Source of the DNA: Muribaculaceae bacterium
GTDB taxonomy: Bacteria; Bacteroidota; Bacteroidia; Bacteroidales; Muribaculaceae
Reading direction: 5' to 3'
Assembly: GCA_017399915.1 (NCBI GenBank)
Contig: JAFQAS010000061.1
Location: 51,434-115,433 of the forward strand
Length of the DNA stretch: 64,000 bases
In this document: piece after piece, positions 45,294-50,325 of the stretch
Layout: every line of letters starts with the position of its first letter
Numbering within the stretch: the first letter of the stretch is position 1
Notes under the pieces: model-generated
What the model was told of the DNA's origin: nothing
The model's database searches: none
Seen by the model: the letters and a program-made list of their open reading frames with translations, nothing else
Translations under genes and position numbers: made by a program

Positions 45294-45444
45294 TATCATA
45301 ATCGACAAATTTACAAATTAAAGAGGAGAACGAAAAAAGGAAACAGAAAAAATTTCCACGATAATCTATTCTATCATTTTTGATGGGAGAAATAAGAGAG
45401 ATAGGAGGAATAGGTCTGCTAAGGCAACTAAGCGCTTCTAAATG

Positions 45445-46701
45445 TTAGCCGGGCGCTGATGATAAAGTGGAGTTGGGTGTGTCGGTTATTGTGGTGTGGA
45501 GTTTTGTAATTATGCGATTGTTGGCGCGGTCAATGAGTGTGTTGTTGATTGTGGAGAGGTAGATTTGCGTTGTCAGTTCGGAGTCATGCCCCATGCCTTG
45601 GCTTATGACAGATATAGGGATACGCTGGTCGCGTGCCACACTTGCCCATGAGTGCCGAGCCACATACATGGTGAGTGGCACATCAATCGAGGCGAGTTGT
45701 GCGATGCGTTTAAGTGCTTTGTTCACTCGTGCCATCACTATTCGGTAACGTGTGGGCGGTTCATCGCGTGAACGACTTATTGGCAGTAGTAATGACTCCG
45801 TGGTGAGATGACGATATTTGTCAACAATCTCTTGCATGCATTGTTCCCACCTGATTTGGAGCGTCTGCCCTGTTTTGCGTCGGCGATAAGTGAGATATTG
45901 ATGTTTTATGTCGTTAGTGGTGAGACGAGCCATATCGACAAACGACATTCCCCGGGTATAGAACGAGAACATAAACATATCGCGTGCAAAATCGAGCGAG
46001 GGTGTGGTTTCAAGGTTGAGCGACTTTATTCGTTGCAAGGCTTTGATGGGCAAGGCTCGTTTGATTGTTTTGGCGATACCGGTATATACATGTCGGAAAG
46101 GGTTGGCTTGCTGCACCAAATCTTTCTCTACTGCACGATTATAAGCGGCTCGGAGGTTACGCATATAGAACGAGATGGAATTGGGCGACACGCCACGATT
46201 GGCGAGATAGGCTTCATAGCGTTGCATGAGGTCGGAATCGATGTCGGCAAGTTCGATATCTACGTTCTCTCGGAAGTTCATAAAACTGCGTAGAGCCGAG
46301 GCATAACCTTGAGCGGTGCCATGACGGTTAATGGCAGTGAGGTGGTCGATAGTGTCGGCGACGAAATCGAAAAATGAGCGTGAACGTCGTTGGCTGAGAT
46401 ATGAATTCACCACATTTACCATGCGGAACCGTTCGCCCGACTCCTTGTAGTCATCGTAGATGTCACGAATAAGCATCAAGTCACATTTTATTTGTGTCTC
46501 AATCTCTTTTAGTTGCACTTTGCGAGCAGAGGCCTTACGTGGCATACGGATAGTGTTGCGATAATGGTTCCACTCTTCAAAATAAACCTTGTAAGTTGTG
46601 CGAATACTCGCAGTGTCACCATTGCTGTTGATTAGTTGGTAGTTGAGCATACCAGGTAGTTGTGGATTGTTTGAAGGTAAAAATCTAATTTGTATTTTCA
46701 T
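45445..46701 (-). CDS. Tyrosine recombinase (DNA invertase/integrase type)
   Basis: 418 residues from the chosen ATG; the open frame extends 20 codons further without a sensible N-terminus. Three parts: an Arm-like N-terminal domain (about 1-95), a SAM-like core-binding domain (about 100-200, FFDFVADTIDHLTAINRHGT) and the catalytic domain. Catalytic residues: Arg in FYTRGMSFVDMARL (about 257), Lys in YRRRKTG (about 285), Arg-His in YVARHSW (about 350), His in GMGHDSELTTQIYLS (about 375) and the nucleophile Tyr in that motif. The group covers Bacteroidetes integrases and the recombinases that flip promoters. The inverted-repeat promoter at 49934-50123 makes it a candidate invertase. Confidence 0.9.
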   Translation of the reverse strand: MKIQIRFLPSNNPQLPGMLNYQLINSNGDTASIRTTYKVYFEEWNHYRNTIRMPRKASARKVQLKEIETQIKCDLMLIRDIYDDYKESGERFRMVNVVNSYLSQRRSRSFFDFVADTIDHLTAINRHGTAQGYASALRSFMNFRENVDIELADIDSDLMQRYEAYLANRGVSPNSISFYMRNLRAAYNRAVEKDLVQQANPFRHVYTGIAKTIKRALPIKALQRIKSLNLETTPSLDFARDMFMFSFYTRGMSFVDMARLTTNDIKHQYLTYRRRKTGQTLQIRWEQCMQEIVDKYRHLTTESLLLPISRSRDEPPTRYRIVMARVNKALKRIAQLASIDVPLTMYVARHSWASVARDQRIPISVISQGMGHDSELTTQIYLSTINNTLIDRANNRIITKLHTTITDTPNSTLSSAPG

Positions 46702-46742
46702 AATAAATAAGTTGAAAGTTGGTAATAACAAATTGTGTGTGT

Positions 46743-46760
46743 ATTTTAGACAAAAGAACA
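46743..46760. repeat. 18-base inverted repeat, left arm
   Basis: ATTTTAGACAAAAGAACA, an exact reverse complement of 50308-50325. The pair brackets the BspA/DUF4365/invertible-promoter segment. Confidence 0.75.
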
Positions 46761-46790
46761 TAAGAACAAAAGTTTTTTATGGAGGTGTTA

Positions 46791-46829
46791 ATTATGCATT
46801 ATGAATTATGAATTATGAATTGTGAATTA
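46791..46829. repeat. AT-rich tandem repeat (ATTATGAATT/ATTATGCATT type)
   Basis: Head-to-tail 10-base units of ATTATGMATT type. Same units recur at 52923-52957. Confidence 0.75.
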
Positions 46830-46835
46830 AATTTA

Positions 46836-46962
46836 ACCACCTCCCCCCTTCGGGGTACTCCTCCTAAAAATTGCTAAGCAATTTTCAAGAGGAGAGTTGC
46901 TGCTCTCATTGGCTCTATTGTTCTTACTAAAATTCTTGCAGAATCTCAAGAGGAGAGTTTTC
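46836..46962 (+). repeat. Palindromic repeat element, copy 1
   Basis: Constant blocks ACCACCTC, ACTCCTCCT, CAAGAGGAGAGTTGCTGCTC.. and a second AAGAGGAGAG, separated by three hairpins whose stems differ from copy 2 but stay self-complementary. 46886-46923 matches 50218-50255 at 36 of 38 bases. Confidence 0.75.
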
Positions 46963-47236
46963 GTTATTCACAATGCAAAGATACGATGCAAAAAATGTTA
47001 AAAACGGCGATAATGAAAAAAAGGAGTATTTTTTTGCTACCGGGATTTATGAGGCAACTAAATCTAATGGCTGATGTTGTATTTTTTGACAGAAGGACAG
47101 AAGTTTTCATAATGACAAAAAATATTTTGTGTCCATTCTGCACATTATGTTCAATCTTTCATTGAATCACAATAGTGTGAATTTACTACCTTAGAAAGAG
47201 TTGGTTCATGGAGTGAAGGTACATGAGATATAAAAC

Positions 47237-47262
47237 AATGGCTACCGGTGTCGGTAGCCATT
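47237..47262 (-). terminator. Terminator of the BspA-like gene
   Basis: Perfect 10-bp stem (47237-47246 with 47253-47262); minus-strand side continues GTTTTAT. Confidence 0.78.
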
Positions 47263-47323
47263 ATTGGTGTGAACCTAGGAAATTATTAGCAGTTAGTGCT
47301 AATGTGGTGTTATGTTTTTGATC

Positions 47324-47377
47324 GCTAAGGTGGATAGGGTTATTAAGGGCTTTAAGGTCGATAAGGTCACTAACGAT
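47324..47377. repeat. 9-base periodic repeat tract
   Basis: Six successive 9-mers of type NNTAAGGTC (GCTAAGGTG, GATAGGGTT, ATTAAGGGC, TTTAAGGTC, GATAAGGTC, ACTAACGAT). Same style as the tracts around the four-helix-bundle gene at 60363. Confidence 0.65.
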
Positions 47378-47447
47378 TATTGCCAAACATGACTTTATCT
47401 CCTTTTTGTTTCGACCTGACTGCGTTCCCTTTCCCTTTCCCTTAGTG

Positions 47448-49412
47448 TTACATTGCGAATTTGAAGGTGCGACCTTCGACTGTGAGGATATATATGCCAT
47501 TGGAGTCGATGGTGATTGATTTGTCAATGCCGGTGTAGATTGTTGTGCCGGCAGTGTTGTAGATTTCAACATCAGAGAATTCATCGGCACCTGTTATGGT
47601 CACCACATTTCCTCTCACGCACACTTTAATATCGTTATCTACAAGCGCATTTGCAACACTGCCATCGTTTTTAACAAACACGATGCTCAATTGTGAGTTG
47701 GCTGTGATTGATGGAGTATTATAATTGCCGTTGGCATCAAGTTGATTTATCACATCAATGCCGTTAAATGTCACCGAGTTGCATTTCCAACCATTGGCAG
47801 GAACAATTTGCAACATGAGTATCTCACCATTATCCACAGTTTGTTTTATTACCCCACCTTCGGGATAAGCAATAGTGAGTATAGGTTTTACCACATCATC
47901 TACTTCAAATTCCAATATTTGCTCTGCATCTTTCCATCCTTCGGCAGTAGCATATGCCACCAAACTTCCTTTAGGAACTAATAAGCGGTCAGACGTGCGA
48001 CCACCACCCGATGGAGGTGTGGGGTTATAACAATAACATACATCGGCACAGCGATTACCTTCTCCAACATAGGTTACCGATTTAGGAAGGTGTAAAACAG
48101 GGATATTGCAACCATTGAACGCACACCAGCCAATCGTGGTCACCGAATTGGGGATCGTTATCGAGGTCAAGCCACCGCAATAAGCGAACGCATAGTTGCC
48201 AATCAAACGAGTGCCTTCTTTTATTGATAGCGTTCCTGTTGGTTCATTACCTTTATACCCTAAACAACAATTATCTAAATATAATATTCCATCGGGTTGA
48301 TTATTATACCAACCGGTACAAAGGAACGCATCGGAGCCAATCGTGGTAACGGAATTGGGGATGGTTACCGAGGTCAAGCCAGTGCAACCAGAGAACGCAT
48401 AGTTCTTTATTTCGGTAATATCATTAGGTATTACTAAATTTTTTATTTCTGTGCCATTAAGTTTGAGTTTCTTTGCATAATATAGTGGATTTGAATTATA
48501 ATAATCAAAGTCAATCTTGCACCATGCAGATAAATCAGTGATATTAACCTCTGTCAAGCCGCTGCAATTATAGAACGCATCGTCGCCAATCGAGGTTACG
48601 GAATTGGGGATGGTCACGGAGGTCAAGCCAGTGCAACCAGAGAACGCATAGTTCTTTATTTCGGTAATATCATTAGGTATTACTAAATTTTTTATTTCTG
48701 TGCCATTAAGTATGAGTTTCTTTGCATAATATAGTGGATTTGCCTCAGAACTAACAAATTTAATCTTGCACCATGCTGATAAATCAGTGATATTAAGCTC
48801 AGTCAAGCCGGTGCAACCAGAGAACGCATCGGAGCCAATCGTGGTTACGGAATTACCAATAGTCACTGAGGTCAAACCTGTGCAATTATAGAACGCCCTG
48901 TAGTCAATCGTGGTCACAGAATTGGGGATGGTCACAGAGGTCAAGCCGGTGCAATTATAGAACGCCTCGGAGCCAATCGAGGTAACGGAATTGGGGATGG
49001 TCACTGAGGTCAAACCTGTGCAATTATAGAACGCACTGTAGCCAATCGTGGTCACAGAATTGGGGATGGTCACAGAGGTCAAGCCGGTGCAATTATAGAA
49101 CGCATCGGAGCCAATCGTGGTAACGGAATTGGGGATGGTTACGGAGGTCAAGCCGGTGCAACCAGAGAACGCATAGTCGCCAATCGAGGTAACTGAATAG
49201 GTGGTACTGTTGTATGTAACTGATGAGGAGATAGAAAGAGAACCAGTTATCGATGAGGAGCAATCATCCACTTCTACTGTTTTATTAGTTTCATCAATGA
49301 TGGTGTAATAAAAATCACCACTTTTGAAATCATAAGCAAATGTGGGAAGAGCCACGCAGAGCATCATCGCTATCGCGAGGATTGCTCGGAAAAGTTTTGT
49401 TAAATGTTTCAT
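47448..49412 (-). CDS. BspA-like leucine-rich-repeat surface protein
   Basis: 654 residues. Signal peptide (residues 1-26, ALPTFA). Next come tandem LRR_5 units of 23 residues with core GCTGLTSVTIPNSVTTIGSDAF (quoted in two halves: CTGLTSVTIPN, SVTTIGSDAF), about residues 62-215. Two copies of an 83-residue module (LTELNITDLSAWCKI..., starting about 208 and 291) follow, then more LRRs. A C-terminal domain of about 120 residues ends DSNGIYILTVEGRTFKFAM, resembling type-IX-secretion sorting tails. Related proteins mediate adhesion to host or other bacteria. The DNA repeats are near identical and prone to unequal recombination. It follows the DUF4365 gene by 20 bases and probably shares its promoter, the invertible one. 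Confidence 0.85.
   Translation of the reverse strand: MKHLTKLFRAILAIAMMLCVALPTFAYDFKSGDFYYTIIDETNKTVEVDDCSSSITGSLSISSSVTYNSTTYSVTSIGDYAFSGCTGLTSVTIPNSVTTIGSDAFYNCTGLTSVTIPNSVTTIGYSAFYNCTGLTSVTIPNSVTSIGSEAFYNCTGLTSVTIPNSVTTIDYRAFYNCTGLTSVTIGNSVTTIGSDAFSGCTGLTELNITDLSAWCKIKFVSSEANPLYYAKKLILNGTEIKNLVIPNDITEIKNYAFSGCTGLTSVTIPNSVTSIGDDAFYNCSGLTEVNITDLSAWCKIDFDYYNSNPLYYAKKLKLNGTEIKNLVIPNDITEIKNYAFSGCTGLTSVTIPNSVTTIGSDAFLCTGWYNNQPDGILYLDNCCLGYKGNEPTGTLSIKEGTRLIGNYAFAYCGGLTSITIPNSVTTIGWCAFNGCNIPVLHLPKSVTYVGEGNRCADVCYCYNPTPPSGGGRTSDRLLVPKGSLVAYATAEGWKDAEQILEFEVDDVVKPILTIAYPEGGVIKQTVDNGEILMLQIVPANGWKCNSVTFNGIDVINQLDANGNYNTPSITANSQLSIVFVKNDGSVANALVDNDIKVCVRGNVVTITGADEFSDVEIYNTAGTTIYTGIDKSITIDSNGIYILTVEGRTFKFAM
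48403..48900 (-). repeat. Two 249-base direct repeats inside the BspA-like gene
   Basis: Two copies of an 83-codon module, 249 bases apart, with more than 100 bases almost identical (for example TAGTTCTTTATTTCGGTAAT near 48400 and 48649). In-frame, so loss or gain would change protein length only. Confidence 0.7.
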
Positions 49413-49432
49413 AATTGGAGGTTATTTTATAA

Positions 49433-49852
49433 TTATGGTAATTGATTGAAATTTGTAATTATATATTTTGACCAATTCTTTGCTGGACCCTTTTTATTCG
49501 CTAAAGACAAAGAATATTTTCCAACATTTTTTCCTTTAACGTTTTTGGAGGCTATATTAGTAAAATCTACTGAGTTTATTAACCATAAAGTATTTATATC
49601 TTTTACATAAAACACAAACCAATAATTGGGAGAAGGTTTAGGGCAAGAAATTGCAGCAAACAATCCTCCAGTTGAAATTGATTTAACTTGAATTTCTTGA
49701 TAAGTATGACTGCTATTAGTCTGAATTGTTCTAACAAGCAAATCTACTCCATGATCATCTACTGCAGGTACATATATTTCCCTACCTTCGCTAAGCAACT
49801 TTGAAATAATCAAATGTTCGCTTGCTTTTCCTAAATACATTGACTGATTCAT
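49433..49852 (-). CDS. DUF4365-type protein with PD-(D/E)xK nuclease-like core
   Basis: 139 residues, no signal peptide. GKASEHLIISKLLSEGREIY (about residues 8-27) has the glutamate of the first helix. DDHGVDLLVRT (about 32-42) carries the acidic residue, and QEIQVKSIS (about 52-60) the Q-V-K of a PD-(D/E)xK core. This layout is that of DUF4365/restriction-endonuclease-like folds, so nuclease activity is plausible but unproven. First gene of a two-gene unit with the BspA-like gene. No promoter motif (no CAAA on the plus strand) lies between its start and the left inverted repeat at 49934. Confidence 0.72.
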   Translation of the reverse strand: MNQSMYLGKASEHLIISKLLSEGREIYVPAVDDHGVDLLVRTIQTNSSHTYQEIQVKSISTGGLFAAISCPKPSPNYWFVFYVKDINTLWLINSVDFTNIASKNVKGKNVGKYSLSLANKKGPAKNWSKYIITNFNQLP

Positions 49853-49933
49853 ACTAATTTATTTTTATAAATTCAACATCATTTAAAACACAATATTCTC
49901 TTATACATCAATCTATTAAAAAATTAATCATTC

Positions 49934-50123
49934 ATTTTTTCTTGATAAGAGAGTGTTGCTCGTTTTACTAAAATCCAAATTATCAATCTTTTATAAAGAT
50001 ATTAGCAATATTTTCGCTGCAACAAATAATTATTTCGTTGCATTTAATTAACTAAACGCCTTTGATATTCAACTGATTTTCACTACTTTTGCATAAAGTA
50101 ACACTCTCTTATCAAGAGAAAAT
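49934..50123. promoter_or_regulatory. Invertible promoter segment (inverton), currently pointing right
   Basis: Inverted repeats at 49934-49957 and 50100-50123 match at 23 of 24 positions with an uninterrupted 18-base core (TCTTGATAAGAGAGTGTT). They enclose 142 bases holding a perfect Bacteroidetes promoter (TTTG 50061-50064, 19 bases, TACTTTTG 50084-50091). An imperfect palindrome (50018-50042) sits almost at the centre of the segment (50028). Flipping would place the -7 element at 49966-49973 facing the DUF4365 gene, about 107 bases from its start. Confidence 0.82.
50061..50091 (+). promoter_or_regulatory. Promoter inside the invertible segment
   Basis: TTTG 50061-50064, 19-base spacer, TACTTTTG 50084-50091, ending 8 bases before the right inverted repeat. 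Confidence 0.82.
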
Positions 50124-50171
50124 TTTTACAAATTTTAGATATTGAAAATGGGGCTGACGCATGGATTTCTG

Positions 50172-50288
50172 ACCACCTCGGCTCGTTGAGCCACTCCTCC
50201 TATTTTTCTGCGAAAAACAAGAGGAGAGTTGCTGCTCTCATTAGCTCCATTGTTCCTCCTATCCACTGCGTGGCAGGAGGAGAGTTGG
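50172..50288 (+). repeat. Palindromic repeat element, copy 2
   Basis: Same block order as copy 1: ACCACCTC, hairpin GGCTC-GTT-GAGCC, ACTCCTCCT, hairpin TTTTT/AAAAA, CAAGAGGAGAGTTGCTGCTC.., then hairpin CCTCCTATCCAC/GTGGCAGGAGG. Stem sequences differ from copy 1 but remain paired. Confidence 0.75.
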
Positions 50289-50307
50289 GGCTGGCGCGAG
50301 ATTTTTT

Positions 50308-50325
50308 TGTTCTTTTGTCTAAAAT
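50308..50325. repeat. 18-base inverted repeat, right arm
   Basis: Exact reverse complement of 46743-46760. Confidence 0.75.

Follow-up and report, generated by a model that had tools for sequence, protein, structure and literature searches.

A Predicted Invertible Promoter Beside a BspA-Like Gene Unit in a Muribaculaceae Bacterium and the Tyrosine Recombinase That Probably Flips It

Introduction

Within a stretch of 64,000 nucleotides from a Muribaculaceae bacterium (hereafter the window, at its full length), a pair of inverted repeats encloses a promoter motif directed away from a BspA-like gene unit. Does this small segment act as a switch for the genes behind it, and if so, which enzyme turns it? 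A first-pass annotation of the DNA had read the segment as an invertible promoter with the BspA-like unit on its left as the target and with the present orientation as OFF. Comparison with related genomes, which yielded 15 homologous elements with matched spacers, supports this reading, and the recombinase, the regulon, and the insertion unit described below are additions to it. Judging from sequence comparison, we consider that the segment at 49942–50115 is likely an invertible promoter switch and that it is probably flipped toward the DUF4365-like/BspA-like genes by the recombinase encoded at 45445–46761, with a probability of roughly 0.85 for this reading as a whole.

Architecture of the Predicted Switch Segment

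The predicted invertible segment (49942–50115, with no strand assigned), delimited by sequence and repeat search, measures 174 bp from spacer to spacer. Its left arm (49934–49960, plus strand) contains the site TTTCTTGATAAGAGA at 49938–49952 with the spacer TTGATAA at 49942–49948, and its right arm (50097–50123, minus strand) contains the site TCTCTTATCAAGAGA at 50105–50119 with the spacer TTATCAA at 50109–50115. The arms read TTGATAAGAGAG in the window; they are 27 nt long and 93% complementary, and they form the top-ranked inverted repeat of the region from 46 to 54 kb. The perfect core of 18 bases noticed earlier was confirmed: perfect 16-mers begin at 49940, 49941, and 49942, and in the 64-kb window the arms of this segment are the sole perfect inverted pair of at least 16 bases with its members no more than 300 bp apart. 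At shorter lengths, the window holds 37, 11, and 5 perfect inverted pairs at k = 10, 12, and 14, compared to means of 21.2, 1.05, and 0.1 in 20 first-order Markov shuffles; the repeats of the segment exceed chance. A dispersed repeat with CTCCTCC/GGAGGAG pairs is found at 50163–50301 and also at 46836–46929, and it makes up most of the 50 matches of the region in genome G000, to which the window belongs, and of the 45 in G004.

Promoters of Bacteroidota have the consensus boxes TTTG and TAnnTTTG. On the plus strand of the segment, TTTG (50061–50064), 19 bases, and TACTTTTG (50084–50091) form the motif TTTG-N19-TACTTTTG (50061–50091), so that the enclosed, rightward-pointing promoter of the annotation stands. 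The motif is directed toward genes for a GntP permease and a glycerate kinase and away from the 139-aa and BspA-type genes, which lie on the minus strand. From the start codon at 49852 to the left arm, a minus-strand search found neither TTTG nor TAnnTTTG, which agrees with the earlier statement that the left genes have no promoter boxes of their own before the repeat. The segment shows two hallmarks of a Bacteroidales invertible promoter, namely short inverted repeats around a small intergenic segment and a Bacteroidota promoter motif inside it. A pattern search of the genome itself, with one assembly per species, matched the assembled arrangement of the segment alone.

In the proposed mechanism, a tyrosine recombinase would pair the two inverted sites, and strand exchange in the 7-base spacers would invert the segment. 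Transcription in the present state would run rightward and leave the BspA unit silent; inversion would put the end of the −7 box 113 bases (24 + 89) upstream of the ATG of the 139-aa gene. The annotation had placed the promoter about 107 bases upstream after a flip, a figure that suits the box less well than it does the predicted transcript leader.

Genes on the Presumed Target Side

The first gene after the switch (49433–49852, minus strand) encodes 139 aa with DUF4365-like/PD-(D/E)XK-like similarity. The DUF4365 label given to it at first is weak, as PF14280 scored 16.1 bits, below the curated cut-off of 24.3, and PDDEXK_5 scored equally. The second gene (47448–49412, minus strand) encodes a predicted surface protein of 654 aa: PF13306 (LRR_5) matched with 344 bits against a cut-off of 27.7 (E 3.1e-104), which makes it a BspA-type leucine-rich-repeat protein. 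It would presumably serve as a surface adhesin. A type A sorting domain marking T9SS cargo was sought in it, and TIGR04183 reached 13.9 bits against a cut-off of 23. The gene carries 69-base tandem repeats (23-residue units) at 48802–49270, a possible source of length change. At E 1e-8, LRR_5 matches (several per gene) number 37 in G000, 98 in G001, 46 in G005, and 67 in G011, and they far outnumber the switches in these genomes.

Homologous Elements and Their Presumed Targets

Homologues were sought by a DNA search with the window region and by a second search with the promoter half of one G001 element. Fifteen homologous elements were collected, one in the window, 11 in G001, two in G005, and one in G011, and thus in four of 12 genomes of the genus; the other eight gave no element match at E 0.01 in the search with the promoter half. 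From spacer to spacer, the elements measure 170 to 174 bp (n = 15). The left and right 7-base spacers are identical in 15/15 elements and are of the types TTGATAA, TTAATAA, and TTGGTAA. Strand exchange by tyrosine recombinases requires matching spacers, and since the spacers are matched within the elements, their upkeep argues for use. A spacer shuffle gave 2/100,000, a figure that is not a probability because the elements are related. Across 397 genomes of the family, a two-arm pattern matched in G000 and G001 only. The loose 15-base site pattern was discarded as a stand-alone signal: it gave 418 matches in 12 genomes versus 353 for the reversed pattern, exceeding the latter in seven genomes, falling far below it in two (G008 and G009), and differing from it little if at all in the others.

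The promoter faces away from the surface-protein gene in all 15 elements, or in 14/14 by a cautious count without the G001 element C2b, for which the side was assigned by a spacing of 72 bp alone; the presumed target of C2b is a small protein, and the gene that its promoter faces is a different one, with a secretion tail that scores below threshold. Ten of the 15 elements have an LRR_5 (BspA-type) unit on the side that the promoter faces away from, and the LRR_5 gene is the second gene from the switch in the window, in G011, and at one G005 element. Among the five elements without an LRR_5 unit, two targets share a BspA-like N-terminus by eye; two other non-LRR_5 targets resemble each other by eye, one of them with a secretion-tail domain that scores above cut-off. 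The target start codon lies 69 to 73 bp from the arm in seven of the 15, and a −7 box on the target side was seen in none, a weak result given that fewer than one is expected by chance. The neighbors that the promoters face vary among elements, and some are convergent. Because the elements adjoin surface-protein genes while the genes on the other side vary, the BspA-like unit on the left is taken as the target in the window. The GntP–glycerate kinase pair is unlikely to be the target, as G004 has both genes without an element.

These elements also bear on whether the repeats are RNA structures, such as a terminator or an attenuator, rather than recombination sites. In several elements a short hairpin could arise from the promoter-facing arm and its outer half; however, the folding energies vary between −1.6 and −20.7 kcal/mol, folding is frequent on the opposite side too, and the pairing of the repeats, the constant segment length, and the linkage to a recombinase would be left unexplained. 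We regard this explanation as hardly credible. A terminator hairpin on the OFF side as a consistent feature of the elements was likewise not supported by folding.

A related promoter occurs in contig C40 of G000, where a stretch (L069, 701–960) is 75% identical over 72 bases to the window promoter. It precedes and faces a BspA gene and adjoins a decayed repeat arm, and it is perhaps a switch fixed ON.

The Candidate Recombinase and Its Presumed Sites

Downstream of the BspA gene lies a tyrosine recombinase gene (45445–46761, minus strand), whose product is the likely invertase; judged against its G001 homologue, the gene may start at 46701 instead. The protein has the domains PF13102 and PF00589 and the catalytic-type residues R270, K296, R369, H370, H392, and Y401, which are 98–100% conserved in 65 aligned sequences, and these features together place it among the tyrosine recombinases. 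Its best matches in the 12 genomes of the genus are 71% identical in G001 and 60% in G011 and G005, and at most 54% in the other eight. The genomes with elements are those whose recombinase reaches an identity of about 60% or higher (4/12), and the gene order switch, gene, BspA gene, recombinase is common to the window, G005, and G011. The G001 homologue adjoins none of the elements of its genome; with the nearest about 20 kb away, it would need to work in trans.

The recombinase belongs to a 4.9-kb unit (45371–50311) with the BspA gene, the small gene, and the switch. This unit is absent from G004, where the flanks matching the window lie 101 bp apart, and it is therefore an insertion relative to G004; clean target-site duplications were not noticed at its ends. 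In G005 and G011 (loci L115 and L114), the unit of switch, gene, BspA gene, and recombinase is oppositely oriented between the same two neighbors, sigma-factor-like and ZupT-like genes named by eye.

At E 1e-60, 72 of 119 family genomes have a homologue of the recombinase. The 60 best further homologues and ten earlier loci gave a set of 70, from which three loci without enough sequence were removed. Among the remaining 67, a repeat pair with palindromic arms lies just 3′ of the recombinase gene in 31, compared to one in an upstream stretch of equal size; 36 have no such pair downstream. The arms of 26 of the 31 pairs are of the CTC...GAG type, as in the window, and typically read TCTCTTnnnAAGAGA. 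A perfect −7 box stands at a fixed place near one segment end in 20/31 segments (chance level, 170 of 3000 random 200-mers). Relative to the next gene, the motif points away in 16 segments, toward it in three, and both ways in one, and 11 segments are without it; the 16 facing away and the three facing toward show that this kind of segment occurs in either orientation across the family.

Three other recombinases of the genus (46–55% identical; L116, L117, and L118) each have a repeat pair of their own, set between the recombinase gene and the one that follows; TTTTGC(T/C)(A)AAACA-like motifs occur within and beside the segment. More distant recombinases (36–37%; L096 and L119, on contigs C60 and C32 of G000) have downstream pairs with GTTC...GAAC arms, not CTC...GAG. 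It looks as if the site type followed the recombinase group.

Would another recombinase of the genome invert the segment instead of the one at 45445–46761? There are candidates, as G000 has eight matches to this recombinase in all, and any action of the G001 homologue on its elements would be a distant one. However, this alternative is unlikely in view of the co-occurrence of elements and recombinase in four of the 12 genomes, the shared gene order in G005 and G011, and the match between the site type and that of the family loci. The recombinase at 45445–46761 thus remains the probable invertase.

Orientation and the Central Dyad

Alternatively, inversion might have ceased, leaving a fixed outward promoter for the GntP–glycerate kinase genes or for none, with the repeats as remnants. 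A permanent orientation would also produce the 15/15 elements facing away, and one orientation is seen across three species-level genomes. We nevertheless judge it very unlikely, since the spacers match within each element yet differ between elements, G004 has the GntP side without an element, some elements face convergent genes, and the family segments run in both directions. With an invertible promoter, the away-facing state would be OFF for the BspA-like gene, and the excess of this state (15/15 close elements and 16/20 motif-bearing family segments) hints, in a way open to testing, that the cells are usually OFF.

A central dyad, TGCAAC-N13-GTTGCA (50018–50042, with no strand assigned), has its center 1.5 bp from the midpoint of the segment. 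Perfect inverted pairs of at least five bases are centered within 1.5 bp of the midpoint in 11 of the 15 segments, and other 3-bp bins contain at most four. The sequence differs by group, with GCAAC...GTTGC in G000 and G001 and GTGAAA...TTTCAC in G005 and G011. By a looser score, the best dyad falls within 3 bp of the midpoint in 7/15 close elements, so the case for the dyad comes from the count of exact pairs. Its extension to the recombinase group in general was rejected: in 29 family segments, taken from a 61-locus count with seven recombinase loci left out, there were four at k = 5 versus a shuffle mean of 3.4, and none at k = 6 versus 1.2. Two roles are conceivable for the dyad: that of an accessory site whose position inversion does not change, or that of a regulator site about 60–70 bp upstream of the predicted start.

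A bolder and doubtful proposal is that a silent regulon has arisen from a portable adhesin-switch cassette. In it, one tyrosine invertase would serve up to 11 dispersed surface-protein promoters of a single genome, all facing away in the bulk population, and the midpoint dyad, unmoved by inversion, would bridge the sites and bias them to OFF.

Comparison with Known Systems

If the main reading is true, a single invertase governs a whole family of BspA-like surface proteins in the genus, and single cells could display different sets of them. Furthermore, the site type, with palindromic TCTCTTnnnAAGAGA arms and matched spacers just 3′ of the recombinase gene, offers a sequence-based route to switches and their enzymes in the family. 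In the literature searched, with subscription papers outside its scope, no paper was found that joins BspA with promoter inversion, and none on Muribaculaceae with the terms invertible and recombinase.

Bacteroides is well known for promoters inverted by serine or tyrosine invertases (PMC5903667, PMC8375218, PMC4747536, and PMC11892184). First, Tsr19 (BF2766) of B. fragilis is a single tyrosine recombinase that inverts a local and a distant promoter, both of cell-surface loci, and the promoter IVp-I was OFF for the most part in culture and in the majority of the feces tested (PMC4747536). The away-facing excess found here fits such an OFF bias. By description, the two systems are alike in their tyrosine recombinase, surface loci, and mostly-OFF local promoter. 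However, the Tsr19 targets in that account are exopolysaccharide and outer-membrane protein operons, whereas the targets here are BspA-like units, with 11 elements in one genome and another site sequence.

Second, in the Mpi system of B. fragilis and B. intestinalis capsules (PMC5903667 and PMC8375218), one enzyme likewise serves numerous invertible promoters, each about 180 bp long and scattered over the genome. Compared to that system, which has a serine recombinase and ARACGTTCGTN repeats, the window has a tyrosine recombinase and TTGATAAGAGAG arms, and it is thus not of the Mpi type.

Third, the groups of invertons and invertases from a defined gut community (PMC11892184) resemble the present case in having Bacteroidota motifs inside the segments and surface genes and tyrosine recombinases nearby, and invertase groups were linked there to repeat groups; the words "bspa" and "leucine-rich" are absent from the main text of that report. 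Collectively, the kind of system is already known from Bacteroides, and what is new here is the adhesin regulon, the site type, and the midpoint dyad.
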